34,949 bases of DNA, taken from the NCBI GenBank assembly GCA_025350045.1, contig JANXYM010000088.1, forward strand, positions 1 through 34,949, in the 5' to 3' direction. Made by a program: the position numbers and the translations under genes. The notes beneath the pieces are model-generated. The model was not told the DNA's origin and searched no databases. It saw only the letters and a list, made by a program, of their open reading frames with translations. Numbering within the stretch: position 1 is the stretch's first letter; each line of letters begins with the position of its first letter. Of the stretch, positions 18,172-32,989 are shown piece after piece. This DNA is from Methanomicrobiales archaeon (lineage in GTDB: Archaea > Halobacteriota > Methanomicrobia > Methanomicrobiales > Methanospirillaceae).

Positions 18172-18278
18172 TTTTTGCGTCACTTGCGTCACATTGCCAG
18201 CATTTTCCGGGATCTTTTTTGTACATTTTTCTCGTACAAGATCCCGGAAACCAGGTACAATGTGCCGGAAGTGCCGGA
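18172..18278 (+). repeat. H element copy 1
   Basis: Core stem TTTCCGGGATCTT (18204-18216) pairs perfectly with AAGATCCCGGAAA (18238-18250); inside it GTAC at 18221-18224 can pair with GTAC at 18234-18237. The left flank has the 9-mer TTGCGTCAC twice in tandem (18176-18193), and the right flank gtgccggaagtgccgg is also a doubled motif that partly pairs with it. Conserved sequence is shared with copies at 22.45-22.76, 24.46 and 32.5 kb. Confidence 0.75.
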
Positions 18279-18390
18279 GGGTTGAAAGCGACCACCTGGC
18301 AACAATCTGCCGGCACACCAGCACGCGTGAGATCGCCGCACCGGGTTTGGCTGTTGCCGGCGTTTTTGGGGCCCGGGAGAATTCATGACA

Positions 18391-18942: not shown

Positions 18943-19013
18943 CAAGACGCGGTCGTACATTCCATCAAAATGCCTTTGTAGGGCAACAACAATTATGGTA
19001 CAGAGGCATCTTT

Positions 19014-19232
19014 ATGGGAACCGAAGCAGTATCCCTCAATACCGTTCTTGAATACGTCGAGAAGCTCGATATCGAAGACCAGCAATATCTCCAGGAGATC
19101 ATCCACCGCAGGCTTATCGACGCAAAACGCATGGCTGTTGTCAGCAGGGCAAAGCAGGCGAAAGCAAACGTGCAGAAAAATAAAAGCCGGAGCGGAACGG
19201 CAAAAGATCTTCTGGCGGATCTGAATGGTTGA
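19014..19232 (+). CDS. Antitoxin-like small protein (partner of RelE-type toxin)
   Basis: 72 residues, mostly helical: LNTVLEYVEKLDIEDQQYLQEIIHRRLIDAKR followed by a basic tail KQAKANVQKNKSRSG and a short acidic end DLLADLNG. This pattern (N-terminal helix pair, then a basic linker) is common in unclassified antitoxins located before RelE/ParE-type toxins. The stop overlaps the toxin start by eight bases. The frame is open from 18879 but that part is repeat-derived; ATG 19014 is the sensible start. Confidence 0.7.
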   Translation: MGTEAVSLNTVLEYVEKLDIEDQQYLQEIIHRRLIDAKRMAVVSRAKQAKANVQKNKSRSGTAKDLLADLNG

Positions 19233-19500
19233 ACTCATCTGGGACGAACGCTTCAAGAAAATTTACAAAAAATGGTCGCACCAGCACCCGGAGCTGAAGG
19301 CACAATTTGCCAAAAAGATTGTTCAGTTTGAAGAAGATCCGTTTCATCCTTCCTTGAAAACCCATACGTTAAGCGGGGTCCTGAAAGGACTCTGGTCGTT
19401 CAGGATTACATACGAGCACCGCCTCGTTTTCGATTTTATCGATGAAAGCCGGACACAAGTTGTTCTGATCGATATCGGTTCGCACGAAGAAGTGTATTAG
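19225..19500 (+). CDS. RelE/ParE-superfamily toxin
   Basis: 91 residues. The order KKIYKKWSHQHPELKAQFAKKIVQFEEDPFHPSLKTHTLSGVLKGLWSFRI, followed by YEHRLVFDFIDES and VLIDIGSHEEVY, matches the RelE/YafQ-like mRNA interferase fold, with the basic and His residues near the C-terminus that usually carry catalysis. Relatives cut ribosome-bound mRNA. It overlaps its small upstream partner by eight bases, so the two are coupled. An R element lies on each side of the pair (18.77 and 19.52 kb). Confidence 0.85.
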   Translation: MVELIWDERFKKIYKKWSHQHPELKAQFAKKIVQFEEDPFHPSLKTHTLSGVLKGLWSFRITYEHRLVFDFIDESRTQVVLIDIGSHEEVY

Positions 19501-19516
19501 CGTTCGAATCTTTTTT

Positions 19517-19610
19517 GCCCCCACCCGCCCCCCCGAAACCCGGGGGCTGGCCGGGTCTCACTTGGCGGGAGCAGCCGGGAGCCGGTGATCTGGGTCGCCA
19601 TACCGGGCCA
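19517..19610 (+). repeat. R element copy 6 (damaged)
   Basis: Left part is intact (ccccacccg, aaacccgggggctggccggg, gagcagccgggagccggtga), then it diverges; gccataccgggccaatggg may be a remnant of the right end. It lies between the RelE pair and the membrane-protein gene. Confidence 0.65.
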
Positions 19611-19721
19611 ATGGGGTGGATAGGGCTTAGGAAGAGGACATCAGGGTGTTTAACGCTGGTGATTGCCAAAGGGAGACGACTATGCTCCAGTATTTTTACA
19701 AGTAAACACTAAAAGAATATC

Positions 19722-20312
19722 ATGCATGAACTGGCAGAGGTCCTCACCGATCGGAAGGGACTGACCTGGATCGTGGTAACTGCGCTTTTCTATGTGCTGG
19801 TCCTGGTCCCATTCAATCAATACCACTGGGAGATTGCGGGTATTGCTCTGCGCCCGGCAGCGGTACTCCCCGTGGTCTGCGGGATTCTCTGGGGCCCCGC
19901 AGCAGCGTGGGGTCTTGGACTTGGCAATGTGACTGGTGATCTCTTTGGTTCGTGGTCCCTCATGAGCATCTTTGGTTTTCTCATCAACTTCCTCTACCCG
20001 TACCTCGCTTACCGGCTCTGGCACCGGTTGATGAAAGACCACGAGATCCGGAGGGATCCTTTTTGCCTTGGGTGTTTCTGGGCAGTAACACTTGTGACAA
20101 CCTTCTTCTGCATGCTCCTTCTCGCAGCAAGCGGGACGATCTTCTTTGGCCGTCCTTTTGAAAGCAAGTTCATCAGTTATTTTGGTAACAGCATTTTCTG
20201 GGCTATGATTGCCGGGCCAATCCTGTTCCGGCTGATGTTTGTGCCGGCATTCCGGAACGGACTTGTGTATGGCCGGGAATGGGACCGCCGGTTAACCCTG
20301 GCGCCAAGGTAA
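19722..20312 (+). CDS. Integral membrane protein, ECF S-component-like
   Basis: 196 residues with about five or six hydrophobic segments. The stretch LRPAAVLPVVCGILWGPAAAWGLGLGNVTGDLFG resembles S components of energy-coupling-factor vitamin or metal transporters, which have an Arg/Pro start to a helix followed by a small-residue-rich helix and a Gly-Asp-x-x-Gly turn. No ECF ATPase or T component is nearby, so a shared module encoded elsewhere would be needed. Specificity cannot be assigned; a general conserved membrane protein is the alternative. Confidence 0.55.
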   Translation: MHELAEVLTDRKGLTWIVVTALFYVLVLVPFNQYHWEIAGIALRPAAVLPVVCGILWGPAAAWGLGLGNVTGDLFGSWSLMSIFGFLINFLYPYLAYRLWHRLMKDHEIRRDPFCLGCFWAVTLVTTFFCMLLLAASGTIFFGRPFESKFISYFGNSIFWAMIAGPILFRLMFVPAFRNGLVYGREWDRRLTLAPR

Positions 20313-20416
20313 CGAAAAATCTTAAGCCCGCCACAGGACATGACACGGAATTGATTCACTTTCACCCTCTGCGCCCGGATCTTTATCTCCTGAATAACCG
20401 GTAATTGAACCGGGGA

Positions 20417-21238
20417 ATGGCAGTGACAAAGATCCGTGTGCTGGATAACGAAATTTCCGTTTGTTCGCTGAATGATGAGGATTATATCAGTATTACCGAT
20501 ATTGCACGTTACAAAGATCCGGACAGGTCTGATTATATTATTCAGAACTGGTTACGGAACAGGAATACCATAGAATTTTTAGGGATTTGGGAGCGTCTTA
20601 ATAATCCGGATTTTAATCCCATCGAATTCGATGGGTTTAGAAAACTCGCCGGGCTTAATAGTTTTACCCTGACTCCCAAACAGTGGATTGTTCGGACATC
20701 AGCCATCGGCCTCATCTCTAAGCCGGGAAGGTATGGTGGGACATACGCTCACAAGGATATCGCATACGAGTTCGCGTCCTGGATCTCAGTCGAATTCAAA
20801 CTTTATCTCATCAAGGAATTCCAGCGGCTCAAGGATGAAGAGCGTAAACAGCTTGGCTGGGATATCCGCCGGAATCTGGCAAAGATCAATTACCGGATCC
20901 ATGCGGATGCGATAAAAGAGAACCTGATTCCGGCTGAACTGACCCGGCACCAGATTACCACGATTTACGCATCCGAAGCGGATGTACTCAACATGGCACT
21001 ATTCGGGATCATCGCGAAGGAGTGGCGTGAGGTAAACGCTGACAAGACTGGAAATATCCGGGATTATGCCGACATCTCGCAGCTCGTATGTCTCTCCAAC
21101 CTGGAAAACCTCAATGCCCTGTTTATCAGCGAGAACCTTTCCCAGCATGAACGACTGGTGAAACTGAACAGTATCGCGATTCATCAGATGAAACTGCTGA
21201 CGGATGATGCAGGTATCAGGCAGATTGGCGGTGTGTAG
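20417..21238 (+). CDS. KilA-N domain protein
   Basis: 273 residues. The segment DYISITDIARYKDPDRSDYIIQNWLRNRNTIEFLGIWE, followed by PIEFDGF and the GRYGGTYAHKDIAYEFASWISVEFKLYLIKEFQRLK block, is the KilA-N DNA-binding domain known from large DNA viruses, phages and defence islands. The C-terminal part is helical and unassigned. ATG 20417 is annotated, but GTG 20423 is better spaced from GGGGA at 20412-20416 and would give MTKIRVLD as the start. It begins the accessory island and may be a viral relic or a regulator. Confidence 0.85.
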   Translation: MAVTKIRVLDNEISVCSLNDEDYISITDIARYKDPDRSDYIIQNWLRNRNTIEFLGIWERLNNPDFNPIEFDGFRKLAGLNSFTLTPKQWIVRTSAIGLISKPGRYGGTYAHKDIAYEFASWISVEFKLYLIKEFQRLKDEERKQLGWDIRRNLAKINYRIHADAIKENLIPAELTRHQITTIYASEADVLNMALFGIIAKEWREVNADKTGNIRDYADISQLVCLSNLENLNALFISENLSQHERLVKLNSIAIHQMKLLTDDAGIRQIGGV

Positions 21239-21245
21239 CTGGGCT

Positions 21246-21450
21246 ACTCCGGAACCGGAAGGCCCGGCCCCCACCCGTCCCCTCCGGAACCCGGGGGCTA
21301 GCCGGTCTCTTTGTAACGATCCAGCCCTGAGTCGGTCTTCGCAGGCCGTTTGACAATTGCCCGGAACAGGAACGGGCACCGGACCGGGCACGTATCGGAG
21401 ATTTTGGGAGGGGGTACCGGAAAGAGCGGAGAGTCTCCGGAACCGGAAGG
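21246..21450 (+). repeat. R element copy 7 (complete, flanked by 16-bp direct repeats)
   Basis: Full unit. CTCCGGAACCGGAAGG occurs at 21247-21262 and again at 21435-21450, exactly 188 bases apart. Between them are the C-rich block, cccgggggctagccgg, ccagccctgagtcggtc, gccgtttgac, ggaacaggaacgggcacc and gggggtaccgg. It separates the KilA-N gene from the hic cluster. Confidence 0.8.
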
Positions 21451-21520
21451 TATTGGAATCATTCAGATCCTCAACAAAGATTTTAGGAAGAGACAACCCA
21501 TTGTGATTCAGGATAATATT

Positions 21521-21733
21521 ATGTCAACATTTACTGCTGTGCTTCACAAAGAGGATGACACCTATGTGGCAGAATGTCCCGAGGTAGGTACAGTAAGCCA
21601 GGGCAAAACAGTGGAAGAGGCAGTCAGTAACCTGAAAGAGGCGACCGAACTGTACCTGGAAGAGTTTCCCCTGACGAAAAAGAAGCGGGCAATCCTCACA
21701 ACCTTTGAGGTGTCATCGGTTGCCACATCATAA
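21521..21733 (+). CDS. hicB: HicB-type antitoxin 1
   Basis: 70 residues with the partial RNase-H-like fold of HicB: FTAVLHKEDDTYVAECPEVG for the first strands, then SQGKTVEEAVSNLKEATELYLEEFPL for the helix. HicB neutralises HicA and often represses the operon. No extra C-terminal DNA-binding domain is present. The frame is open from 21350 through R DNA; ATG 21521 gives the family start. It overlaps hicA. Confidence 0.87.
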   Translation: MSTFTAVLHKEDDTYVAECPEVGTVSQGKTVEEAVSNLKEATELYLEEFPLTKKKRAILTTFEVSSVATS

Positions 21734-21950
21734 GCCGGTTTCCGGTGAAGATACAATCAAAATACTCTGCAATAAATTTGGTTTTTCCACATCCGGTCGT
21801 TCAGGCAGTCATGTGCGGCTTTCGAAGATGAGTTCTAGCGGAAAGACCGGAACCGTTGTTCCTCTCCATGATGAGTTAAAACCGGGAACACTCCGGGGTG
21901 CACTCAGACTGGCTAAAGTTGATATCGATGAATTTTTCCGGTTTGTCTAA
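21720..21950 (+). CDS. hicA: HicA-type mRNA interferase toxin
   Basis: 76 residues from TTG 21720 with the typical order KPVSGEDTIKILCNKFGFSTSGRSGSHVRLSK, VVPLHDELKPGTLRGALRLAKVDIDEFFRF. The catalytic histidine is in GSHVRL. HicA cleaves mRNA after binding through its double-stranded-RNA-like fold. TTG 21720 overlaps the hicB stop (TAA at 21731-21733) and matches the family start better than TTG 21705. A second hicB follows six bases downstream, an unusual arrangement. Confidence 0.85.
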   Translation: MPHHKPVSGEDTIKILCNKFGFSTSGRSGSHVRLSKMSSSGKTGTVVPLHDELKPGTLRGALRLAKVDIDEFFRFV

Positions 21951-21956
21951 GGGAAA

Positions 21957-22181
21957 ATGACCCTGCACAGGTTTTTGATCGTCATTGAAAAAGCCGAAAA
22001 AAATTACTCGGCATATTCACCGGATCTCCCCGGTTGCATTGCAACAGGAAAGACCCGGGAGGAAACAGAAGAGCGAATGCATGAAGCGATCGAGATGCAT
22101 ATCCGTGGACTTATCGAAGACGGGATTCCAGTCCCGAAATCCCATTCATCTGCAACTTTTGTCGCAGTCCAAGCTGATTGA
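21957..22181 (+). CDS. hicB: HicB-type antitoxin 2
   Basis: 74 residues, clearly HicB: FLIVIEKAEKNYSAYSPDLPGCIATGKTREETEERMHEAIEMHIRGLIEDGIPVPKS. It belongs to a different HicB subgroup from the first antitoxin (long C-terminal helix ending in IPVPKS). It follows hicA by six bases in the same direction, so the three genes are likely one transcript. Either antitoxin could serve this HicA. Confidence 0.87.
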   Translation: MTLHRFLIVIEKAEKNYSAYSPDLPGCIATGKTREETEERMHEAIEMHIRGLIEDGIPVPKSHSSATFVAVQAD

Positions 22182-22245
22182 ACATTTCCACCACTTTTTA
22201 ATCAATCGTTTATTTTAAGGTTTCACCAAAGAGCTTTTCATTATT

Positions 22246-22421
22246 TTCCGGCCCGGGCCCCACCCCTCCGGAACCCGGGGGCTAGCCGGTCTCTCGCGTA
22301 ATGGCCTAGCCTTTAGCCGGTCATCGCAGGCCGTTTGACAATTGCCCGGAACAGGAACGGGCACCAAACCGGGCAGGTACCGGAGATTTTGGGAAAGTGA
22401 GGGGTACCGGAAAGGGCTCAG
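22246..22421 (+). repeat. R element copy 8
   Basis: Complete copy: ccggcccgggccccacccc, gaacccgggggctagccgg, then AATGGCCT at 22300-22307 facing AGGCCGTT at 22328-22335 (paired with one G-U), a TGCCCG/CGGGCA hairpin, and two GGTACC sites. Confidence 0.8.
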
Positions 22422-22444
22422 TTCATTCTTGAAATTCGGATAAG

Positions 22445-22540
22445 TTGGACAAAACTATCACGATTTCCGGGATCTTTTTTCTGTACACTTTTCTCGTAAG
22501 AAATTCCGGAAATACTGTACCTTTTGTCCACTTTGTCCAA
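22445..22540 (+). repeat. H element copy 2
   Basis: Core ggatcttttttctgtacact, then ttttctcgtaag, is shared with the other H copies. TTGGACAAA at 22445-22453 pairs perfectly with TTTGTCCAA at 22532-22540. The right arm holds a doubled motif (TTTTGTCCA then CTTTGTCCA). Confidence 0.75.
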
Positions 22541-22562
22541 AACCGGTTTTTCTTCCGGGCAG

Positions 22563-22653
22563 TTGGACAGATCTATCGCGATTTGCGGGATCTTTTTTCT
22601 GTATGATTTTCTCGTAAGACTTTTCGGAAATCAGGTATTTTTTGCCTTTTTGC
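22563..22653 (+). repeat. H element copy 3
   Basis: Same core (cgggatcttttttctgta, ttttctcgtaag). The left flank again has ttggacag, but the right flank has TTTTTGCC twice in tandem (about 22638-22653), so the outer arms do not pair in this copy. Confidence 0.7.
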
Positions 22654-22756
22654 CCGGCACTTCCGGCACATTGCCAGCATTTTCCAGGATCTTTTTTCTG
22701 TACATTTTTCTCGTGAGAGTTTCCGAAAAACAGGTACAATGTGCCGGAAGTGCCGG
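22654..22756 (+). repeat. H element copy 4 with perfect 20-bp outer arms
   Basis: CCGGCACTTCCGGCACATTG (22654-22673) is exactly complementary to CAATGTGCCGGAAGTGCCGG (22737-22756). The conserved core lies between. Copies 2, 3 and 4 are tandem, with the ggatc of the core at 22470, 22588 and 22687. Confidence 0.8.
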
Positions 22757-22767
22757 AGGGCTCAGCT

Positions 22768-22938
22768 CTCCGGTACCGGAAGGCCCGGGCCCCACCCCTC
22801 TGAAACCTGGGGGCTGGCCGGGTCTCGCGTAACGGCCCAGCCCTGAACCGGTCATCGCATGCCGTTTGACAATTGCCCGGAACATGAACGGGCCCGGACC
22901 GGGCAGGTACCGGAGATTTTAGAGAGGGGACGGCGGAA
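22768..22938 (+). repeat. R element copy 9
   Basis: Starts ctccggtaccggaaggcccg and runs to the gattttagagaggg block. AACGGC (22831-22836) pairs with GCCGTT (22861-22866). It begins directly after H copy 4. Confidence 0.8.
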
Positions 22939-22955
22939 GAAAGAATATTGCCGGT

Positions 22956-23222
22956 CTACAATCCCCGGTATGCCACACTCCGGTGCCGGATATATTTCAC
23001 CGTTACTTCGCGATTCGCGTGAAGTACCTGATAGATCACACGATAATCGCCCACGCGAATCCGGTAAAGATTTTCTGCACTGGCAAGTTTGTAGGCATCA
23101 TGGGGAACCGGTTCGTTCACCAGATTCTCAATATGATCAAAAATGTGCAGGACGATTTCTTTGGGAATTTTCCGGAGATCTTTTTCTACGCCATTTTTAA
23201 AAGAGAGTGAATACGGTTCCAT
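22956..23222 (-). CDS. RelE/ParE-superfamily toxin
   Basis: 88 residues. KNGVEKDLRKIPKEIVLHIFDHIENL, followed by YKLASAENLYRIRVGDYRVIYQV, EVTVKYIRHRSVAYRGL, is the standard RelE/YoeB-like pattern with Arg in the two central strands and the C-terminal His-Arg region. mRNA cleavage is expected by family. It lies nine bases after its antitoxin gene in the same transcript and is bounded by R elements. Confidence 0.87.
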   Translation of the reverse strand: MEPYSLSFKNGVEKDLRKIPKEIVLHIFDHIENLVNEPVPHDAYKLASAENLYRIRVGDYRVIYQVLHANREVTVKYIRHRSVAYRGL

Positions 23223-23231
23223 GAACCCTGC

Positions 23232-23405
23232 TCACATTACGCGTTTCTTCAGCTCGGCAAGGCTAATCGTACCTTCGTCCCGCCGCTCGGCAACCATGGC
23301 AAGATCATGAAGATCTTCCTTGAGGTGCTGGTATTCGGCGAGCGGGAGGATGACTGCGACCTTATTGCCGTTCTCATCCACAACATACTGTTCAACAGCA
23401 CTCAT
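23232..23405 (-). CDS. Phd/RelB-like antitoxin
   Basis: 57 residues: EQYVVDENGNKVAVILPLAEYQHLKEDLHDLAMVAERRDEGTISLAELKKRV, the short form of antitoxin common before RelE toxins (an N-terminal strand for operator binding and a C-terminal helix for toxin binding). ATG 23405 is preferred over 23435 because AGGA on the minus strand precedes it by seven bases. An AT box (gattatatcatc on the minus strand, about 23440-23452) is a likely promoter. Confidence 0.8.
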   Translation of the reverse strand: MSAVEQYVVDENGNKVAVILPLAEYQHLKEDLHDLAMVAERRDEGTISLAELKKRVM

Positions 23406-23507
23406 AAAGAATTCCTGATTGTACGTTGTATTCACCTGATGATATAATCACTTTTTGTTGCAGTTGTGATGACCATCCGTATCCACTCAAGGCAGCTGCA
23501 AACACTG

Positions 23508-23694
23508 CTCCGGTACCGGACGGCCCGGCCCCCACCCATCCCCACCGAAACCGGGGGCTGGCCCGGTCTCCGCATAACGGCCCAGCCTTGAGCCGGTCGT
23601 CGCATGTCGTTTGATAATTGCTGGTACAGGAAACGGGCACCGGACCGGGCAGGTACCGGAGCGTCTAAAAAAGTGAGCGGTACCGGAAAGGGCT
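23508..23694 (+). repeat. R element copy 10
   Basis: Complete: ctccggtaccggacggcccg, ccgggggctggcccgg, gtcgtcgcatgtcgtttg, caggaaacgggcaccgg, gagcggtaccgg. Forward like the others even though the toxin-antitoxin pair before it is on the minus strand. Confidence 0.8.
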
Positions 23695-23786
23695 GGGCTA
23701 AGGCTCTGAGTGGGGGAGATGTGAAACCGCAACCGGATACAATCATTTATTGATGCCGGGGAAAAATAGGAGAACTGGAGTACCCG

Positions 23787-24242
23787 ATGCGAATCTACCT
23801 GGATGTCTGCTGCCTCTGCAGGCCATTCGATGACCAGACCTCAAACCGGATCAGGATGGAGACAGAAGCAGTGATCGCAATTCTCAAACGATGTTCCGAT
23901 GACTGGACACTTGTCGGGAGCGAAGTGATTGAATTTGAAATTGCCGGAATTTCCGATGAGGAGAGGCGCAGACATGTCGCAAGTCTCATGCTGTTTGCAC
24001 GGGAACAGGTGAATCTCGATCAGGCACTCCTCACCCGGGCAAGATCTTTTCACGAACACGGAATGGATACCTTTGATTCCCTGCATCTTGCAAGTGCCGA
24101 GCGTGCCGGGGCGGTATTCCTGACAACCGATGATACCCTCATCAAAATTATTAAGAAGCATGCGGATAAGATTACTGTTGAGACCAAAAATCCCGTGCAG
24201 TGGTTCATGGAGGTGACGGCCGATGGAAGCAAAGACGCTTAA
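23787..24242 (+). CDS. PIN-domain nuclease toxin
   Basis: 151 residues. The first PIN aspartate is in IYLDVCCLCRPF, a conserved Glu in VGSEVIEFEI, and the later acidic residues in GMDTFDSLHLASAERAGAVFLTTDD, a classic PIN C-terminal pattern. RNA cleavage is expected. Upstream, aggagaactggag provides a ribosome binding site. The gene for the probable antitoxin starts inside its 3' end (overlap of 20 bases), which reverses the usual antitoxin-first order. Confidence 0.85.
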   Translation: MRIYLDVCCLCRPFDDQTSNRIRMETEAVIAILKRCSDDWTLVGSEVIEFEIAGISDEERRRHVASLMLFAREQVNLDQALLTRARSFHEHGMDTFDSLHLASAERAGAVFLTTDDTLIKIIKKHADKITVETKNPVQWFMEVTADGSKDA

Positions 24243-24432
24243 CGAGATCAGGATTCAGGGGTTTGATGTGCTGGTGAAAAACCTGGGCCCTGCTGATGCG
24301 ATCCGGTTTATTCAGAGTTATACCCATGGAAGCGGGGATTATACCAAAGAGCGGAAGGCCTGGCTCGAAAAGGATTTCGATACGGTGGTTGCCGGGATCA
24401 TGGAGCACCGGAAGAAGAAATCCCGGGTCTAA
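24223..24432 (+). CDS. Small partner of the PIN protein, probable antitoxin
   Basis: 69 residues, charged and helical (EIRIQGFDVLVKNLGPADAIRFIQSY, then KERKAWLEKDFDTVVAGIMEHRKKK). I do not recognise a named antitoxin fold, but the overlap with the PIN gene and the GGAGGTGA at 24209-24216, six bases before its ATG and inside the PIN coding sequence, strongly suggest coupled expression and partnership. Confidence 0.7.
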   Translation: MEAKTLNEIRIQGFDVLVKNLGPADAIRFIQSYTHGSGDYTKERKAWLEKDFDTVVAGIMEHRKKKSRV

Positions 24433-24454
24433 ATTTTTATTCTCTTTTTATTCA

Positions 24455-24520
24455 AAAGGGATCTTTTTTCTGTATATTTTTCTCGCAAGAGATCCGGAAA
24501 ACAGATACAATGTGCCGGAG
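24455..24520 (+). repeat. H element copy 5
   Basis: Core gggatcttttttctgtatat, ttttctcgcaagagatccgg, then acagatacaatgtgccgg and agggctcagctcagg. GGATCT and AGATCC form the stem. The left outer arm is missing, so this copy is truncated on that side. Confidence 0.7.
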
Positions 24521-24530
24521 GGCTCAGCTC

Positions 24531-25200
24531 AGGAGACCGACAAGGGTAGCACGTCGTTACCGTCGGAGAAACACCCTCCCAAACCCCTCATGAATCCACT
24601 TCCAATCCGGGCTCGCAAAAACCCCGGTTTGCCATTCCGGAGAGTTCATTTCCGGAATATGTGCAAAAAACCATACACTTTTTCACACGTTTTCCAGAAA
24701 ACAATTTTACTTACGATTTACGCCAAACGGAGCGTTTTGCTTCGAGCAATTAAACGCTAATGTACGCTTTTGGAAGGCAAAACTCAAGGGGTCTGGATAG
24801 GTAGCACGGTCAAGAGGAAAAGAACCCCCTTTTTGAGGCCCGGAACGAAGCCATCTCTCGTCGGACACCGACGTAAATTTCACGATTCATGCCGGACCCT
24901 CTGTTCATGCAATTCTTCCAGGAGTTTTCGATCAAACAGGGGGTGATCTTCATCCAAAAGGGGCTCAATTTGGGCGTTGTTTGGAAATTCTGGTGGAACG
25001 GAGGCCGATGCATGCCCGGATAGAAGAGGTTGTAAAGTGCTTTGAAAAGGGGGTTTTGGGGGGTTGGGATCAGGATGGGGCGAGGGGAAATTTCGTGTTG
25101 AAGGGATCGTGTGAATTTTTTATTTCAGGATCATCTTGAAATTTTCCCGGCAAAATCCGTAAAATATTTTCAGGAAAATCCGGTTGAAAATTTTCCGGAA
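24531..25200. other. Gene-free stretch, no coding sequence supported
   Basis: About 670 bases with no recognisable protein in any frame. Short structures are visible: GCGTTTTGC followed by caattAAACGC (about 24732-24754), AAACG-gag-CGTTT (24725-24737), and the word ggtagcacg at two places (24545 and 24800). A minus-strand frame at 24810-25013 has no family features. It could hold a non-coding RNA or be the wreck of an older cassette. Confidence 0.4.
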
Positions 25201-25209
25201 AAAGTACGG

Positions 25210-25390
25210 CCGGTTTCCCGGCCCGGGCCCCACCCCTCCGAAACCCGGGGGCTGGCCGGCTCTCCGCGTAACGGCCCAGCCATGAGCCGGTCATCGCACG
25301 CCGTTTGGCGATTGTCCGGAACAGGAACGGGCACCGGGACTTTCATTTACCGGAGCGTTTGGAAAAGTGAGCGGTACCGGAGGGGGCTCA
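25210..25390 (+). repeat. R element copy 11
   Basis: Complete: cccgggccccacccctccg, cccgggggctggccgg, gtaacggcccagccatgagc, cggtcatcgcacgccg, TGTCCG/CGGGCA hairpin (one G-U), gagcggtaccgg. The AT-rich segment just after it (atatttc, tatttaccg) is the likely promoter of the next gene. Confidence 0.8.
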
Positions 25391-25445
25391 CCCGCAAAAA
25401 TATTTCACAACCTATTTACCGCTCCGCACAGATTTTTGCTATACT

Positions 25446-26474
25446 ATGACCGCACGCCCGATTGTCTCTGATTGCCGGAGGAGACCAGTGCATGTTGCGG
25501 TTGCATTAGTGGTCGTGATGGTGGCGGTGCTGCTGGCGGCGGGGTGTTCAGGAGAAAATCCTAGTAATTTAACCCCGGGTAAATCTGCAATAAATAACAC
25601 CACTTCATCTATAACCACAATCCCGGTGATCACTATACCAATTCAAACGATCACCATAACTGTTCCTCCATCAGAATGCCCGGGAAAAAATTCAAAAATA
25701 AATTCCGTCTTGAGTGGGAATTCCTTTATTTTCTCTGGTACCGCTATTCGTCCCGAAGAGAATCTCGTGAGAATCTGGGTTTTCGGGGACAACTTTGCCC
25801 AATGGTTCAATAGTTCCGTCAGACCCGGCGTATTGAATACTATTTCACTGGACAGTATGCATACATCAAACCTGAAGAGCGGTACATATTATCTTCTCTA
25901 CCAATACTCCGAAAATGGAAGTCATTTTGATATCGATTTGAAAAATGCCAACTACCCAGACCAGGTCAAAAACAAAAAAGGGGATCTGATTCTTGATCTT
26001 CAGAGAGTTCGAACAGGTTTTGTGAAAAGTCTGGAAGCCCGGACAATTCTTGAACAAGCAATCAATACTCCGGGAAATAATGATCGATCAGACAATACGA
26101 CACTCATTGTTGAAGAACCCTGGATCATCATCAATCCATTGAAGGATGTCAAAAAGGGAACCTCATTTACAATAAATGGCACAACAAATCTTCCAACAAA
26201 TCGTCCCAAAAATATGAAATTGAAACTCACAATCTGGCCAACCAAACAAGACCCGCGCCGGTTACTGGGTGAACAGTCTGTTGAAGATTATGGCTCCGCT
26301 TTTTCCACATATCTGGATATTGAAAGTGGTGAGAATTGCACGAATACATTTTCTATTCTCGTTCCACCCTTAAACGCAAAAACCGGAGAATATTTCGTGT
26401 CTATGTTTGATTATGACTGGGATAAAGGGTACTCAGGACATGCTCAAAATGGAACAGTATTCAACATCAATTAG
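25446..26474 (+). CDS. Surface lipoprotein, unknown function
   Basis: 342 residues. Signal with lipobox VALVVVMVAVLLAAGCSGE, then a Thr/Ile-rich spacer (TTSSITTIPVITIPIQTITIT) and two beta-rich domains. The second begins around PWIIINPLKDVKKGTSFTINGTTNLP, a pattern seen in DUF3821-type domains of methanogen surface proteins. Many N-x-S/T sites suggest N-glycosylation. Start could be ATG 25446 or GTG 25488. It stands alone between R elements. Its codons are more AT-rich than the core genes. Confidence 0.65.
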   Translation: MTARPIVSDCRRRPVHVAVALVVVMVAVLLAAGCSGENPSNLTPGKSAINNTTSSITTIPVITIPIQTITITVPPSECPGKNSKINSVLSGNSFIFSGTAIRPEENLVRIWVFGDNFAQWFNSSVRPGVLNTISLDSMHTSNLKSGTYYLLYQYSENGSHFDIDLKNANYPDQVKNKKGDLILDLQRVRTGFVKSLEARTILEQAINTPGNNDRSDNTTLIVEEPWIIINPLKDVKKGTSFTINGTTNLPTNRPKNMKLKLTIWPTKQDPRRLLGEQSVEDYGSAFSTYLDIESGENCTNTFSILVPPLNAKTGEYFVSMFDYDWDKGYSGHAQNGTVFNIN

Positions 26475-26493
26475 TCGGGTGACCACCAGATAA

Positions 26494-26660
26494 CTCCGGT
26501 ACCGGAAGGCCCGGCCCCCACCCACCCCCGCCGAAACCGGGGGCTGGCCCGGTCTCGTGGCGGTGCAGCCGGGACCGGTCATCGCACGCCGTTTGGGAAT
26601 TGAGCGGTATAGGAGCGGGCACCGGACCGGGCGAGTAACAGAGATGTCGTGGGGAGATTG
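26494..26660 (+). repeat. R element copy 12
   Basis: Left end ctccggtaccggaaggcccg, ccgggggctggcccgg, gcagccgggaccggtcatcg, cacgccgtttggg, ggagcgggcaccggaccggg; the last hairpin is degraded. It precedes the minus-strand CoiA-like gene's 3' end. Confidence 0.75.
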
Positions 26661-26680
26661 AAGCGAAGGAAAAATGTTAT

Positions 26681-28024
26681 TTATTTTACGATTTTACCAT
26701 ACCCTTTTTTTTCAAATTCGACTGCATCCTCTATATGTATTTCACTTGTGAGTCCGGCAAAATTTTGATACTTATATCCCCTTTGAGATTCAACTGTTGG
26801 CGTTGGTAACTCTGAAAAAAATTCAAACAATATTTTATAATTTTTTGGTAAAGTTTTTTTCTTCGTGATTTCTTTGTACAACTGAATCAATTTTTCTCTT
26901 TTTTCTACCCTTTTTTTCTCTACTTGTTCCCCTACATAATTCAAAACGGATCGAAAATTTGACTCTTCGGTCTCTAAATTGTTGATCTGGTCGTGAATTG
27001 AGGTTATCTGGGTTTCAGAAAATAAATTGAGAATTGGCTCTTCCTGCCCTTGGTCCATAGGATCTTCCCATACAAAACCATTTTGAGGAGATACAATTTT
27101 TTCCCAGGCATTCTCGAATGAATCAAAAGTTGAATATAAATAACTAATTCCTTTTAGCATACTTGAACGATTTTCCCATTCATTGACTTTAAAAAAGGCA
27201 TAACTATTTTTTATTTCATCTTCATATTGACAACATCTCGAACTAAAATTACAGAGTTTCTTCATTTCGGGTTTGGCAATATCCCTCAGTTTTAGTTTTT
27301 TCTGATAATTATTCTCAAAATTCCTGAATGCGGTTTCATACTCTCCCCTTAAAGTTGACTTGACCCAATCTGCAATATCGATAGCGAGGATTTCAGCGGT
27401 GTAAAGACAATTATCCTGAAGGAGTAATCCGATAGATCGGATTCCATGCTCAACAAACAATAATTGTTCACGATAAAGTGAGAACTCACTCTCATTAATG
27501 TAAGTATCAATGAAAATACAGGAATTACTGCTTGCGACTATTGTTGTATCATCATCGGGAAAAAATTTCAGGAAATTTTTCAGTACCCAATAAGATTCAA
27601 TTCCATCTCGACGATATTTACTTTCTCTTCGTTTGAGTTCCTCCAAATCAATAATGCTTAACTGAACTTCAAATACAATTTTTCTACCATCTTTCATTGC
27701 AAGAACATCAGCACGCCAATCTCCTGATGGCGATTGATATTCCGGTTGCACCCACCAACCTTCAGATTTGCAGATTTGGTAAATAAAATTTTTTAATTCC
27801 ATATGCTCCAGGGATTCCGGCACCCCCCCGCACTCGGCCGATTTAATAGCGTGATAAAAATGTTTTAGACCGTTCGGTGATATTCGAAGATGACCTTTGG
27901 CTCCACAACAGGTCATGGTGACATCAAGGCCTTTTTTATGTCGAAGTTTGAGGTCAGCCCAAGCTTCATCAGTTAAATCCGGACCAATTACGCGGTCGCC
28001 GTTAATTATTGCCGATAGTGGAAT
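26681..28024 (-). CDS. CoiA-like protein with putative nuclease domain
   Basis: About 447 residues. The N-terminal part (LSAIINGDRVIGPDLTDEAW, then LRHKKGLDVTMTCCGAKGH, LRISPNGLKHFYHA) matches the N-terminal domain of CoiA-like proteins. A PD-(D/E)XK-type nuclease core follows: LKNFIYQICKSEGW, then GDWRADVLAMKDGRKIVFEVQLS, where D and E-x-Q take the usual D and E-x-K places. The C-terminal 250 residues are coiled-coil-like and charged. The only ATG, 27916, would cut the conserved N-terminus. The frame is open to TAA 28048, and homology indicates a start at ATT 28022-28024, five bases after an AGGGA-like site. AT-rich codons suggest transfer. Confidence 0.75.
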   Translation of the reverse strand: MPLSAIINGDRVIGPDLTDEAWADLKLRHKKGLDVTMTCCGAKGHLRISPNGLKHFYHAIKSAECGGVPESLEHMELKNFIYQICKSEGWWVQPEYQSPSGDWRADVLAMKDGRKIVFEVQLSIIDLEELKRRESKYRRDGIESYWVLKNFLKFFPDDDTTIVASSNSCIFIDTYINESEFSLYREQLLFVEHGIRSIGLLLQDNCLYTAEILAIDIADWVKSTLRGEYETAFRNFENNYQKKLKLRDIAKPEMKKLCNFSSRCCQYEDEIKNSYAFFKVNEWENRSSMLKGISYLYSTFDSFENAWEKIVSPQNGFVWEDPMDQGQEEPILNLFSETQITSIHDQINNLETEESNFRSVLNYVGEQVEKKRVEKREKLIQLYKEITKKKTLPKNYKILFEFFSELPTPTVESQRGYKYQNFAGLTSEIHIEDAVEFEKKGYGKIVK

Positions 28025-28263
28025 GACAATCCCTTTTGGTTTTGCTTAGCTTTTTGGAGAGTCATTTTCTTCGAGAATTTTAAAATCTATTACCTGTATG
28101 TGTCTCGCATTGGAAATGCGGGATTTGATTGCATTGTATGGTCCCAATCCCTTTGTTTCATTATCGGAAACGTATGTCTTAAAACTGACTGTGGCTTCTA
28201 TCGTTGGCATACTATCCCATCTTTTTTTGTATCTTGTTAAAGTAGTTCAAACGGTTTTTCTTA

Positions 28264-28313
28264 CGAGGCGAGGTTGCAGCCGGGAGCCGGTGAGCGTGGG
28301 GCGTCTGGCTAGT
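28264..28313 (+). repeat. R element fragment 13
   Basis: gttgcagccgggagccggtg, then agcgtggggcgt, matches the middle part of R copies 3 and 6. The remaining DNA between the CoiA-like gene and the SIR2 gene (28.05-28.39 kb) is AT-rich and holds no gene I can support. Confidence 0.5.
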
Positions 28314-28389
28314 GGGGAAAATAAAAAAAGGCTCAGTGAAAAAAGTTATGTCGATAATTTGATGCTAATTGAATTTTATTCTCATATAC

Positions 28390-29502
28390 ATGAGTTCGGT
28401 TGATTCAGTTATTATTCTAGGTGCAGGGGCCTCATTTTCCGACGGGGCTCCTCTCCAAAATGATTTAATAAAAGAATTTTGCTCAACTGCCCTTATTAGA
28501 AAACTGGGGTTCTCTAGTAAGGGAATCCCTATAGAGAAGTTGAGTGAAATAGAGATAAATCAATTAAGCCAGATAGAAAAATATTTTGATTTGTTTTGGG
28601 GAGCCGATCTATTATCCTCATTCGATAAGAAATTTTCATATCCAACTTTTGAAGATTGTTTAGGCATTTTAGATATTGCTCAAAACCGGAATGAAAGCTT
28701 TGGGCTAGAATATCGTTCGAAGTTGAATGAATTTCGAAATTCTTTGATTTTTTTAATCGCTAAAACCATCGAAGAAAAATTAACAGCGTCTGAATCTCAC
28801 AATCATGAGACGTTAATAAATAGGTTGGTAAAACAGGGTACTCTCAGATCTACAGCGTTCATAAGTTTAAATTATGATATAATCATTGATAACACACTTA
28901 CCGGGATTCGTAATTCAGATGGCTTTGATTTGGATTATGGTATTGAATTCATGAATTTTAAGAGAGACCCGAATTCGGATGAAAATTCCTGGGGGAGACC
29001 AAATCCAACAAAATCCATCCTTCTTTTCAAACTGCATGGTTCGTTAAATTGGCTTTATTGCCCAACTTGTAACCAAATCGAAATTACTCCAAAAATAAAA
29101 GGAGCAATTAAAGCATTTACTCAGTCAGAAAAATGCTATGCATGCGGAACACCGATGGAACCAATAATTGTTCCTCCGACATATTTTAAAGAGATGGAAA
29201 ATGTCTACCTCCAGCAAATATTCCAAAGGACTGATGAAATTCTTAGGAATTCTAAAAAGATATACATATGCGGATATTCTCTCCCAGATGCAGATTTACA
29301 TATAAAATATCTCTTGAAACGAGCAGAATTATTGAATAGGAATCCACTAGAAATTTTTATCATAAATAATCACAAAGGCAAAAAAAATCCAAAAAAGATA
29401 GATAAAAAGAAACGATTTCTGCAATTTTTTAAAAGAAAAACGATGGTTAAGTACACAGAGTTGAGCTTTGAAGATTTCTGTAGAGATGGAATACAAGATT
29501 GA
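28390..29502 (+). CDS. SIR2-family protein (probable defence NADase)
   Basis: 370 residues. NAD-binding SIR2 motifs: VIILGAGASFSDGAPL at the N-terminus, SLNYDIIIDN in the middle, and KLHGSLNWLYCP with the catalytic-type His. A zinc site follows, CPTCN and CYACG, and then ICGYSLPDADLHIKYLLKRA. Such stand-alone SIR2-like proteins often deplete NAD+ during phage infection in Thoeris, DSR and other systems, but no recognised partner gene is adjacent. ATG 28390 is preferred to 28369 because the SIR2 core begins right after it; there is no clear ribosome site, so the mRNA may be leaderless. AT-rich codons. Confidence 0.85.
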   Translation: MSSVDSVIILGAGASFSDGAPLQNDLIKEFCSTALIRKLGFSSKGIPIEKLSEIEINQLSQIEKYFDLFWGADLLSSFDKKFSYPTFEDCLGILDIAQNRNESFGLEYRSKLNEFRNSLIFLIAKTIEEKLTASESHNHETLINRLVKQGTLRSTAFISLNYDIIIDNTLTGIRNSDGFDLDYGIEFMNFKRDPNSDENSWGRPNPTKSILLFKLHGSLNWLYCPTCNQIEITPKIKGAIKAFTQSEKCYACGTPMEPIIVPPTYFKEMENVYLQQIFQRTDEILRNSKKIYICGYSLPDADLHIKYLLKRAELLNRNPLEIFIINNHKGKKNPKKIDKKKRFLQFFKRKTMVKYTELSFEDFCRDGIQD

Positions 29503-29590
29503 ATCCTTTTTTATCTTTCGACATTCGAGCGATTAATAAAACAGCTATGCTGGACCCGGATTTCTGTCCTCCCCATCTTCTGATGTATGG

Positions 29591-29613
29591 CTAGCGATGA
29601 CCGGCTCCCGGCT
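29591..29613 (-). repeat. R element fragment 14 (inverted)
   Basis: Reverse complement reads agccgggagccggtcatcgc, the middle of R. It is the only piece in the opposite orientation; with fragment 13 it brackets the SIR2 gene as an inverted pair. Confidence 0.55.
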
Positions 29614-29700
29614 ATCTTTTTTGCGAGCTCCCGCCAGCCTAATGTTTCGGCAGTTTCATGAAAACAGGTACTTTCTGTCCAACTGCCCGGATTTATCGAA

Positions 29701-29877
29701 CGAAGGCCCGGGCCCCACCCCTCCGGAACCCGGGGGCTGGCCGGCTCTCGCGTAACGGCCCAGCCTGGAGCCGGTCATCGCAGGCCGTTTGACAATTGCC
29801 GGAACAGGAACGGGCACCGGGACGTGCAGGTACCGGAGATTTTGAGAGAGGGAACGGTACCGGAAAGGGTGGGGCTA
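29701..29877 (+). repeat. R element copy 15
   Basis: Complete: ggcccgggccccacccctcc, cccgggggctggccgg, gtaacggcccagcctggagc, gcaggccgtttgacaattgc, gtaccggagattttgag, ggaacggtaccgg. It lies between the SIR2 gene and the 3' end of the HD gene. Just upstream, aggtactttctgtcc resembles the right flank of H copy 2. Confidence 0.8.
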
Positions 29878-29954
29878 TTCCACAAAATGAAGATCCGTAG
29901 GAGGAATGCAAGTGCAGAAAAATCTCGCGAAAAGAGCGAACGAATTATTATGAG

Positions 29955-31529
29955 TTATTGATCTGTTGTTGCAAGTTTCTTCTCATATTCCGTCATTGCG
30001 GCTTCAATTTTCTTTTTGTAATTATCATCTTTAGTATAAATTCCGTAAATGTGTAGCTCAGTATTTTGGAGAAATTTAAATAATGAAGATGAATCATTCG
30101 TCAAAGAAACAGGTTCATTTTTTCCGTCAAAAATCTTAATCTTATGTTCAACAAATTCATCGTCTAAATCCCCATCTTTGGTTAATTTTGAGGGGCTAAG
30201 ACCTGTTATTGGATTTTCAATACGGGATGTGATATACCACTCTTTAGGAATTCCAGCTTGTTTAACGATATAATCGATTACTGCAGGATCGAAATATTTG
30301 ATTAATTTATGGGGTTTTTCACCATCCCTTTTTTCTATCCCTTGCAATATCATTTGCTCTTCTAAAACTCGCTTTAATGGGTCTCGATAAAGAACTTTTT
30401 TTACGAGATCTTTTAAAAATGCTGAAGAAACAGCCGGATTTTTTATTTGCTTAATTGATTTCGGATTGCTTTGGATTGCTTTTAGTTTTTCAAAAATATA
30501 GGAATCGTCATAATTCAGATAATCATTCTCTCTTGTTTCGTCAAACATCGCTACTAAATCGCCATATGAATGAACTTCCCCTCTTTCCAAGAGACCCGAA
30601 TAGATGCGTTCGGCCATCCGGTGAAAACCAGTAGTAGTTTTTTGGTAAATTACAGTACTATACAGGAAATATCTGGATAGTAAATAATGTTCAACCGCTT
30701 TCTGACCTTTTTTATTTATCACAAGAGGAGATGATCCTTCTCTTTGAGGTTTTTCAGTATAAAGATCGATATTCCTGATTATCTGTTCTAAATCAAAAAT
30801 TCCATACGGAACACCAGTCTGCTTTGAATCACGTAACAAATAATCGAATCGATCAGCATCCAATTCAGAATGGATGATAATTTTTTCCGGTCCTGGGTAT
30901 TCTCCAGCAATGATCTGTGCAATTTTAGTAATTTCATCTTTTGAGAACTCTGTTTTGAGAATAGAATGAAGACTGGATTTAAAAAGAATAATTCCTGCCA
31001 TTCTTTCATGGTGGGCAAAATCTAAGGTGGGGTTCCTTTGAGTGTACAAACTAAGATTAAGTTTATGTGATTTGCTTGAAGTGAGATTTGCATAAGGCAC
31101 TACATTATCATTAGATTTGGATAACTCAACAGTAATTTGTCCTGATTCCTTCGGTACTCTTTTTTTCGCGTCTTTTTTTACTGCCGATTCAATAATATGG
31201 GACCAGGGATAATGACCGATATCATGAAGCAGGGCAGAAATACGGACTATTTCACGGGCTCTGTCACTATTTAATTTATTTTTCTCCTGAAGCGAGACTA
31301 CCATTCTGTCTGCAATATGCATAACTCCTAATGAATGGTTAAACCGGTTGTGCAATGCACCGGGAAAAACATAATCGAGCAGTCCCAGCTGGCGAATATT
31401 GCGTAATCTCTGGAAAAGGGGCGAATCTACAAGCTGCCATTCGAAATCTGTTAACTGAATAAAACCGTGAATATTATCGAATATCCGTTGCTCGGAAAAA
31501 TCAAGTTTTTCAATTTTTGGTTTTGTCAT
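29955..31529 (-). CDS. HD-domain phosphohydrolase (dNTPase/SAMHD1-like)
   Basis: 524 residues. Metal-binding HD residues: H65 in NRFNHSLGVM, H102-D103 in ALLHDIGHYPWSH, the HHE at 173-175, and an aspartate in HSELDADRFDYLLRD at about 220-234. The opening (RIFDNIHGFIQLTDFEWQLVDSPLFQRLRNIRQLG) is typical of the dGTPase/SAMHD1-like and YwfO-type group. Known relatives hydrolyse dNTPs, and some restrict phage by draining nucleotide pools; the activity here is inferred. It begins seven bases after the YwgA-like gene on the same strand, so the two form an operon. AT-rich. Confidence 0.88.
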   Translation of the reverse strand: MTKPKIEKLDFSEQRIFDNIHGFIQLTDFEWQLVDSPLFQRLRNIRQLGLLDYVFPGALHNRFNHSLGVMHIADRMVVSLQEKNKLNSDRAREIVRISALLHDIGHYPWSHIIESAVKKDAKKRVPKESGQITVELSKSNDNVVPYANLTSSKSHKLNLSLYTQRNPTLDFAHHERMAGIILFKSSLHSILKTEFSKDEITKIAQIIAGEYPGPEKIIIHSELDADRFDYLLRDSKQTGVPYGIFDLEQIIRNIDLYTEKPQREGSSPLVINKKGQKAVEHYLLSRYFLYSTVIYQKTTTGFHRMAERIYSGLLERGEVHSYGDLVAMFDETRENDYLNYDDSYIFEKLKAIQSNPKSIKQIKNPAVSSAFLKDLVKKVLYRDPLKRVLEEQMILQGIEKRDGEKPHKLIKYFDPAVIDYIVKQAGIPKEWYITSRIENPITGLSPSKLTKDGDLDDEFVEHKIKIFDGKNEPVSLTNDSSSLFKFLQNTELHIYGIYTKDDNYKKKIEAAMTEYEKKLATTDQ

Positions 31530-31536
31530 AAAAAAA

Positions 31537-32067
31537 TCAGTTAAATTTGGTCAGATCCTTGCATGCGGAATCTATTATTTTCTGGATATTGTGGACATTT
31601 TTAAGATCTGGTTTAAGTGTGAGAAGTCTAACCCCTATTTGTGGGCATTTACTTTCACCAGGAGGAAGTGTTGTACGGAGATAATGAAGGGATGCAATAA
31701 CTTCCAGATAATTCGGATCGTCAAAATTAGACCCCAGAACACTCTTTAGATGTTCTAATCGCTTTATGACTGCCTCTTCATTTCCGAGTTTGATTGTCTC
31801 AGCTTGATTGAATAATTCCGGGTTATCTTTGATGTGGAATAGCGTGCGGGTCAATGCCGGAGAATACGGTCCGCGTACATACCAGCTATATCCGTACCCA
31901 AGACCCACTCCCAGATTCTGGGTAAGATAAATTAATTTCTGATATTTTAGACGATTATCGAAATCATCCATGAACACACCCACGAATCCCAAATGCTTTA
32001 GAATTCTGCTGAGAATGATTCCATTCTGATTTTCATTGGTATTATTTTCCACAATTGACCTCTTCAC
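31537..32067 (-). CDS. YwgA/GepA-like (Panacea-type) protein
   Basis: 176 residues from GTG 32067. The segment KYQKLIYLTQNLGVGLGYGYSWYVRGPYSPALTR is the hallmark of the YwgA/Panacea-like group, small helical proteins often serving as antitoxins or regulators of phage-related genes; the rest is helical. It is the first gene of an operon with the HD phosphohydrolase. In Bacillus subtilis the HD gene ywfO and ywgA are near neighbours, to my recollection, which suggests a conserved pair. The exact role (sensor, inhibitor or antitoxin of the HD enzyme) is unknown. Confidence 0.65.
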   Translation of the reverse strand: MKRSIVENNTNENQNGIILSRILKHLGFVGVFMDDFDNRLKYQKLIYLTQNLGVGLGYGYSWYVRGPYSPALTRTLFHIKDNPELFNQAETIKLGNEEAVIKRLEHLKSVLGSNFDDPNYLEVIASLHYLRTTLPPGESKCPQIGVRLLTLKPDLKNVHNIQKIIDSACKDLTKFN

Positions 32068-32365
32068 GCTTTTGAGTGCCTAATAAGTGTTTACTTCTAT
32101 TGTTGTTATTATTAAGCGTTTTTTAATTAATTTTTGGTCAGATATAAAACATTCACTCGCGCGGTGTGAAAATGTGTTTTGTACGTACTGATTGAAATTT
32201 TACAGCAAAGTCTGGTTGAAACGTGACCATGCAACTGCTGTTCACGAACTTGTTGACCAGATTGTAAAATGTTACGGCGTTCAACACGATTACCGGGCCT
32301 ACCTTATCCCCTCCTTTTCTGCAGCTGCGCCTTCTCAATAGGCAAGTTAGGCTGAAGCCGCCCTC

Positions 32366-32483: not shown

Positions 32484-32575
32484 TCACTTGCATCGCATTC
32501 CATGCCATTTCCGGGATATATTTTAGGGATAATTTTCTCGTAAGAAATCCCGGAAAAAGGGTACATTATAATACA
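32484..32575 (+). repeat. H element copy 6 (diverged)
   Basis: Left flank cacttgcatcgcattcc resembles that of copy 1; core TTTCCGGGAT at 32510-32519 faces ATCCCGGAAA further on, and aattttctcgtaagaaatcc is conserved. Right arm is degraded. Confidence 0.65.
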
Positions 32576-32622
32576 CGAAAGAGTTTGTCTGATGCCAGTT
32601 GGGGCTCGGAGAAATTCGCGGA

Positions 32623-32778: not shown

Positions 32779-32796
32779 AGATAAATAAATAAGAAT

Positions 32797-32971
32797 CAAG
32801 GATTGTCTTTCGCTTTGAACTCATCTTAGGCGTAAGATGATGTGTGGTGTTACGCCACGCAAATGGATTACTTACCGAAGTGCAAGCACTTGATCATACG
32901 CAGTCCTGATGAAAGCTTCGGCCTTCATCACCGAAAAGTCCCGAGGACTTTAGGAAAGACATCCTTTTTTT
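32797..32971 (+). ncRNA. Retron msr-msd RNA (putative)
   Basis: About 175 bases directly upstream of the RT gene. The ends pair: AAGGAT-T-GTCTTTC at 32798-32811 with GAAAGACATCCTT at 32954-32966 (a1/a2, 13 pairs with one bulge). Inside: TCATCTTA-ggcg-TAAGATGA (32821-32840), TGTGTGGTG-tta-CGCCACGCA (32841-32861), AAGTG-caag-CACTT (32878-32891), a GATGAA stem with a C(UUCG)G tetraloop (32908-32929), and AAAGTCC-cga-GGACTTT (32935-32951). AGTCCT (32902-32907) could instead pair with AGGACT (32944-32949), enclosing the UUCG stem like an msd hairpin. The branching G is not certain. A T run at 32965-32971 follows. Confidence 0.72.
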
Positions 32972-32989
32972 AATAATCGAAGGATAAAT

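Follow-up and report, generated by a model that had tools for sequence, protein, structure and literature searches.

A probable inverted-iteron replication origin of small virus- or plasmid-like replicons in Methanomicrobiales

The repeated unit described here, which we call H, is very probably the replication origin of small virus- or plasmid-like replicons of Methanomicrobiales, carrying inverted iterons that would be read by the C-terminus of a replication protein, here named Rep. Sequence comparison appears to give good support to the reading as a pRN1-type origin: it places H behind the rep gene, gives it an iteron layout resembling that of pRN1, links its arms to the Rep C-terminus by covariation, and, as a natural negative control, finds it absent where the C-terminus is of another kind. 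Against this reading stands the fact that, of the 82 different copies present in the loci that were read, only 16 adjoin a Rep, and the other 66, including all copies in the window, lie away from any Rep. The window, that is, the whole 34,949-nt stretch analysed, is contig C105 of a 121-contig, 2.53-Mb archaeal genome, and it contains four full and two partial H copies, all on the + strand (Table 1).

The H unit is ~105 bp long and consists of two sequence-variable, mutually complementary arms of 16–20 bp with a near-invariant, AT-rich core of almost constant length between them (AT content, 72% in the core and 40% in the arms). The outer arm is followed by a linker of ~11 bp, the inner stem, the loop, and the mirror half. 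The inner stem reads TTTCCGGGATCT / AGATCCCGGAAA, often reduced to TTTCCGG / CCGGAAA, and encloses the near-invariant loop TTTTTTCTGTACAATTTTCTCGTAAG. The left arms could be aligned with almost no gaps, and approximately 12 arm types were distinguished (GCGTCAC, GGGGCAC, CCGGCAC, CGGGCAC, GTGTCAC, AGGGCAC, GGGCAACC, GGACACC, GGGCAAAA-GGACAAAA, GGACAAAG, GGGCAG-TTGGACAG, and ATGACAC). Within a type, each arm has two direct GNCA-bearing units 8–9 bp apart, and the arms are inverted across the core. An earlier note on this DNA had regarded the arm sequences as unrelated; they do have something in common: two GNCA (TGNC) tetranucleotides 4–5 bp apart recur in 64 of the 82 left arms and 66 of the 82 right arms. 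Together with the C-terminal covariation described below, these doubled GNCA units are the probable repeated short sites of an iteron origin similar to those of P4 and SaPI. A pattern based on the core matched 16 of 60 related genomes, all belonging to one genus, and the reversed control pattern gave no match; the core pattern was likewise missing in 24 genomes from other genera of the order and in IMG/VR. With a covariance model, the count rose to about 90 copies, spread over 19 of 39 genomes from this genus (Methanoregula and its relatives).

Table 1. Positions of H copies, D1 repeats, and neighbouring features in the window
Feature	Position	Strand	Remarks
H copy 1	18177..18279	+	Orphan origin, chimaeric; perfect inner stem 18204–18216 / 18238–18250
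H copy 2	22437..22541	+	Orphan origin with iterons of the GGACAAA type; 12 of 16 outer pairs formed
H copy 3	22555..22659	+	Orphan origin, chimaeric; arms largely non-pairing
H copy 4	22654..22758	+	Orphan origin; perfect CCGGCACTTCCGGCACATTG inverted double iterons
Partial H	24459..24519	+	Core and right-hand remnant; left arm gone
Decayed H copy	32493..32580	+	
D1 repeat	22244..22436	+	GC-rich, ~190 bp; immediately precedes H copy 2 and is oriented like H
D1 repeat	22768..22951 (start 22768–22775)	+	Directly 3' of H copy 4
Other D1 repeats	Starts 18781, 21259, 23520, 25214, 26508, 29702		~190 bp each
Toxin-antitoxin island	19000–32100		Dense; HicA, ParE, YoeB/YafQ-like, PIN; defence candidates KilA-N PDC-S22, SIR2, HD/dGTPase-like
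Non-coding stretch	32790–32990		Structured-looking; upstream of the reverse transcriptase
Retron-type reverse transcriptase	32990–34612		Best PADLOC match RT_III-A, E 4e-100

Direct reading of the window confirmed the details given in the earlier note, namely the arms of copy 2 (TTGGACAAAA / TTTTGTCC..TTTGTCCAA), the perfect 20-bp pair of copy 4 (CCGGCACTTCCGGCACATTG / CAATGTGCCGGAAGTGCCGG), and the 13-bp inner stem of copy 1. When compared with dinucleotide shuffles, the folding z-scores were −3.45 for copy 2, −7.59 for copy 4, and −6.55 for copy 1, and only −1.60 for copy 3, which overlaps copy 4 by 6 bp. The arms of copy 3 largely fail to pair because they come from two different arm types (left, GGGCAGTTGGACAG; right, TTTTTGCCTTTTTGCCCGG), and copy 1 similarly combines a GCGTCAC-type left arm with a CCGGCAC-type right arm. 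Such a switch of arm type within the core also occurs in three loci elsewhere (L189:10038, L126, and L174) and points to recombination between origins; recombination inside the conserved core is the simplest explanation for the chimaeric copies. No Rep gene was found on the window's contig, and the window copies, some of them chimaeric, are thus orphan origins without the adjacent Rep of a pRN1-type origin. The single type-A Rep of this genome is located on another contig (C112), beside an H of a different arm type from those in the window.

Complementarity of the two arms was far better within than between copies. For 65 copies, the median pairing score of left and right arms was 14.5 when both came from the same copy versus 6.5 when they came from different copies, and a score of 12 was reached by 71% versus 7%, respectively. 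In a 38-sequence alignment, 12 of the 16 outer pairs had changed on both sides, the whole structure contained 166 double-changed cells as against 53 ± 6 after shuffling, and the covariation score was 0.40 versus 0.11. Paired cells made up 88.6% of the H structure, compared with 72.3% after shuffling and no more than 53% in slid versions, and at least 13 of 16 Watson–Crick pairs were formed in 60 of the 76 copies having both arms. The earlier note had doubted that drift alone could maintain the pairing, had proposed that core conservation be set against arm covariation, and had expected its idea to fail if further copies were mostly unpaired; the figures above support the doubt, and the further copies are mostly paired. 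The inner stem was paired in 84% of cells with hardly any covariation, and it is not explained by the iterons. Orphans seemed to retain their GNCA pairs preferentially (mismatches at 23 of 357, versus 117 of 595 elsewhere), which was considered as a sign of selection and set aside as confounded, because any chimaera of two types still matches at GNCA.

These arms might be taken for the stem of a structured RNA, the structural role suggested earlier, or for the transcription terminator of the Rep gene, and strong stem potential, a position behind a gene, and a T-rich loop would suit either. However, G-T and A-C mismatches were equally frequent in orphan arms (36 each), whereas one of the two would be favoured in RNA pairing or in a single-strand hairpin that accepts G-T; the arms behave like binding sites on duplex DNA. 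Searches against Rfam gave no match at gathering thresholds and only chance matches below them, mostly to eukaryotic miRNAs. Most copies are not behind a Rep, and in pRN1 a short terminator-like hairpin proved dispensable while the large stem-loop did not (PMC4234260). Membership of a structured RNA family was therefore rejected for lack of an Rfam match and of a G-U excess, and we consider an RNA or terminator role extremely improbable.

The partner of H became apparent when copies and their flanks were compared across the genus: H is followed by the same 800 bp at many unrelated places, and these are the 3' end of the gene for Rep, a protein of 840–900 residues. Rep contains D5_N and DUF5906 domains, matches DNA-primase PHROGs, and scores 244 bits against TIGR01613 (“phage/plasmid primase, P4 family”; cut-off, 108.7), which places it among the P4-family primase/SF3 helicases. 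The same replication gene occurs in records from Methanoregula and Methanomicrobiales. Fifteen loci coding for a Rep of the P4-family primase/SF3-helicase kind with the matching C-terminus were examined, and each has H or a counterpart directly 3' of the stop codon, as in pRN1-type origins. The distance from stop to core is 62–73 bp in the 13 loci that keep the core; in the remaining two, Methanolinea UBA277 and Methanoregula RA.bin51, the core is altered and the doubled inverted arms are retained. Around one Rep locus (G006:C7), no viral structural gene or integrase was recognised.

The earlier note had also proposed a hairpin-type mobile element and a search for a transposase or RNA partner. 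A mobile element does appear to be involved, but the recurrent partner is a P4-family primase/SF3 helicase, that is, a replication protein rather than a transposase. For H to be a MITE or REP-like element with its arms as terminal repeats is very unlikely in our judgement: dispersed copies do have little in common outside the 105 bp, and some abut other repeats, but within one transposon family the terminal repeats would resemble each other instead of varying from copy to copy, the arm ends of H differ by copy, no transposase recurs, and it is the replication protein that the arms track. An empty orthologous site, against which a target-site duplication could be recognised, was sought with the flanks of three copies; no junction was obtained, the flanks ending in other repeats or at contig ends.

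The association of H is with one part of Rep. About 30 Reps that share only the N-terminal half (mostly 1,000–1,300 residues long) were not followed by any inverted repeat above the shuffled background, so it is the C-terminal part of Rep that H accompanies. Reps of this second kind, with the same N-terminal half, another C-terminus, and no hairpin behind the gene, are widespread in Methanomicrobiales (L241–L274). Pfam called no N-terminal primase domain on the whole Rep, and the N-terminal half forms a separate conserved module; its occurrence in Reps with differing C-termini suggests module exchange. The C-terminus of Rep is predicted to be a winged helix (core pLDDT, 85–90). The best structural matches to this model were RFX DNA-binding domains (Z scores of 10.3 and 9.5), followed by ASFV PrimPol and the P4 origin-binding domain (8.3 each).

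Arm sequence and C-terminal sequence vary together. Across 15 loci, several of which are related to one another, arm similarity correlated with the similarity of the C-terminal domain (Mantel r = 0.55, P = 2e−4), and a modest correlation was retained in the 12 loci left after removal of orthologues (r = 0.29, P = 0.02); in contrast, no such relationship was seen with the helicase next to it (r = −0.16 and −0.19). The residues IS, at one constant position of the C-terminal domain, accompany GACA inner iterons in 5 of 5 Reps and occur in 0 of 10 others, a count from which a decayed, frame-shifted Rep (L069) was left out; two Reps read later conform (L080, GACA with IS; L128, GGCA with VS). As a lead, the GGGCAACC arm type resembles GGCAAC, the half-site of the RFX X-box. 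With many arms, many Reps, and one core, the H family is a natural covariation set from which residue-to-base predictions can be derived.

These observations are consistent with replicons that carry one large Rep, composed of a P4-family primase, D5_N, an SF3 helicase, and a C-terminal RFX/P4-like winged helix. This C-terminal domain would bind the iterons on both flanks of the core, two helicase assemblies would be loaded face to face, and the AT-rich core would then be melted and primed. The arms would remain complementary because the same double iteron on either side must fit the same Rep, and a change in Rep specificity would cause both arms to change together.

The closest known counterpart is found in the pRN family of Sulfolobus. 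In pRN1, a 100-bp stem-loop that begins 54 bp past the Rep gene is needed for replication and functions when relocated, and sequence conservation among related plasmids is lowest in its stem, although the fold is retained (PMC4234260); loop deletions down to 3 bp yielded no transformants (PMC3869888). In 2014, its authors described the origin as having no iteron structure and the binding motif as not identified (PMC4234260), and the replication mode of such origins is disputed between two groups. The pRN family resembles H in overall size (~100 bp), in a 20-bp stem located tens of base pairs past the Rep gene, in a P4-family primase/SF3 helicase with a C-terminal winged helix (pRN1 Rep is annotated with the same family), and in a stem that differs among replicons while pairing is retained. 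We found a doubled unit, 9 bp apart and inverted across the loop, in the stems of pRN1 (TGTCCATAG-TGTCCAAC; shuffle P = 0.002) and pHEN7 (GTCACCACT-GTCACAACT; shuffle P = 0.010). The doubled unit of pRN2 is suggestive (shuffle P = 0.08), and none with this spacing was found in the stem arms of pDL10 and pSSVx. Unlike H, these plasmids do not have the core sequence, and the pRN1 units are oriented oppositely relative to the loop; pRN1 and pRN2 also differ from each other in this direction. The H family suggests that two double iterons, recognised by an RFX-like winged helix, make up the pRN1-type stem.

A second counterpart occurs in the Methanoculleus virus Blf4, for which the original paper describes no origin. 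Inverted GGGCAC-like double units (GGCACGAAGGGCATGA / TTTCGTGCCCTTCGTGCC) are present 97 bp past the stop codon of its primase/helicase, the helicase part of which shares 57% identity with the Rep studied here; in contrast to H, the core sequence is another one, it lies inside an overlapping reading frame, and the Rep is shorter (689 aa). The ori/crr system of phage P4 and the origins of staphylococcal pathogenicity islands (SaPI) are similar in having an SF3-helicase Rep whose C-terminal winged helix reads short iterons (the P4 domain being the one with the Z score of 8.3). In SaPI, the iterons lie on either side of an AT-rich region 3' of rep. Both P4 and SaPI origins differ from H in the number and layout of their iterons, and the P4 alpha primase is of the Toprim type (PMC4234260). 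H can serve as a marker for a little-known family of virus or plasmid replicons in methanogens, and its survey brings to light many origins that have no Rep.

With regard to these orphans, tblastn detected almost no Rep remnants near the 66 copies, whereas in Rep loci the Rep end is ~25 bp from H, indicating that most orphans are not whole integrated elements decaying in place. Neighbouring H copies had the same orientation in all 27 cases. Neighbouring D1 repeats across the genus did so in 87 of 87 cases, and H agreed with D1 in 35 of 35, often abutting it within 4 bp. Phage satellites are known to borrow helper functions, and orphans could similarly be origins of satellite cassettes that lack a Rep and depend in trans on that of a helper for their replication. 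The rarity of Rep remnants suits this proposal, and the uniform orientation of H, its agreement with D1, and the chimaeric origins would fit repeated integration or exchange at H, but neither a common satellite backbone nor a capsid, integrase, or excised form was observed, and the flanks of orphans differ; we regard it as possible, although rather doubtful.

Alternatively, orphans may be decoys kept by the host, origin mimics located in defence islands, where they would titrate the Rep brought in by a virus or plasmid. Several observations are in line with this: in the window, orphans are found amid toxin-antitoxin, KilA-N (PDC-S22), SIR2, HD, and retron-type reverse transcriptase genes; their arm types differ from that beside the one type-A Rep of the genome; three H-bearing genomes (G018, G021, and G024) have no Rep match; 13 of the 60 orphans with both arms are perfect; and few Rep remnants lie beside them. 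Nevertheless, orphan arms are more poorly paired than Rep-adjacent ones (13.5 and 15.1 of 16 pairs kept, respectively; P = 0.004), such islands gather mobile DNA of all kinds, and a literature search yielded no natural precedent. It is therefore unlikely that orphans are decoys, and equally so that Methanoregula chromosomes keep uniformly oriented sets of Rep-less origins from many different foreign replicons in defence islands as decoys or sensors capturing Rep; relocation by recombination or replication in trans seems likelier.

The uniform orientation of H and D1 in arrays also raised the question of integron attC sites. This candidate was not adopted because no match to TIGR02249 exceeded the cut-off in 39 genomes and H adjoins Rep. 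A tyrosine-recombinase fragment of 116–146 aa in one genome (L298, positions 1495–1845, G022:C120) scored 171 bits against TIGR02249, being incomplete and below the cut-off; this genome also carries D1 and H. D1 itself separates small toxin-antitoxin and defence genes, forms arrays across the genus, and looks like a cassette-array boundary. Another repeat (ACCCCCCGACCCCCCACCCCCTTCGATCC...) adjoins H in G021 and G018 (L104, approximately 2005–2330; L177 and L160, from 1501) and also occurs without H in G021. Finally, a short dispersed repeat present in most genomes of the genus (query 686–875) is located ~260 bp from an orphan H in L183 (approximately 9585–9775).
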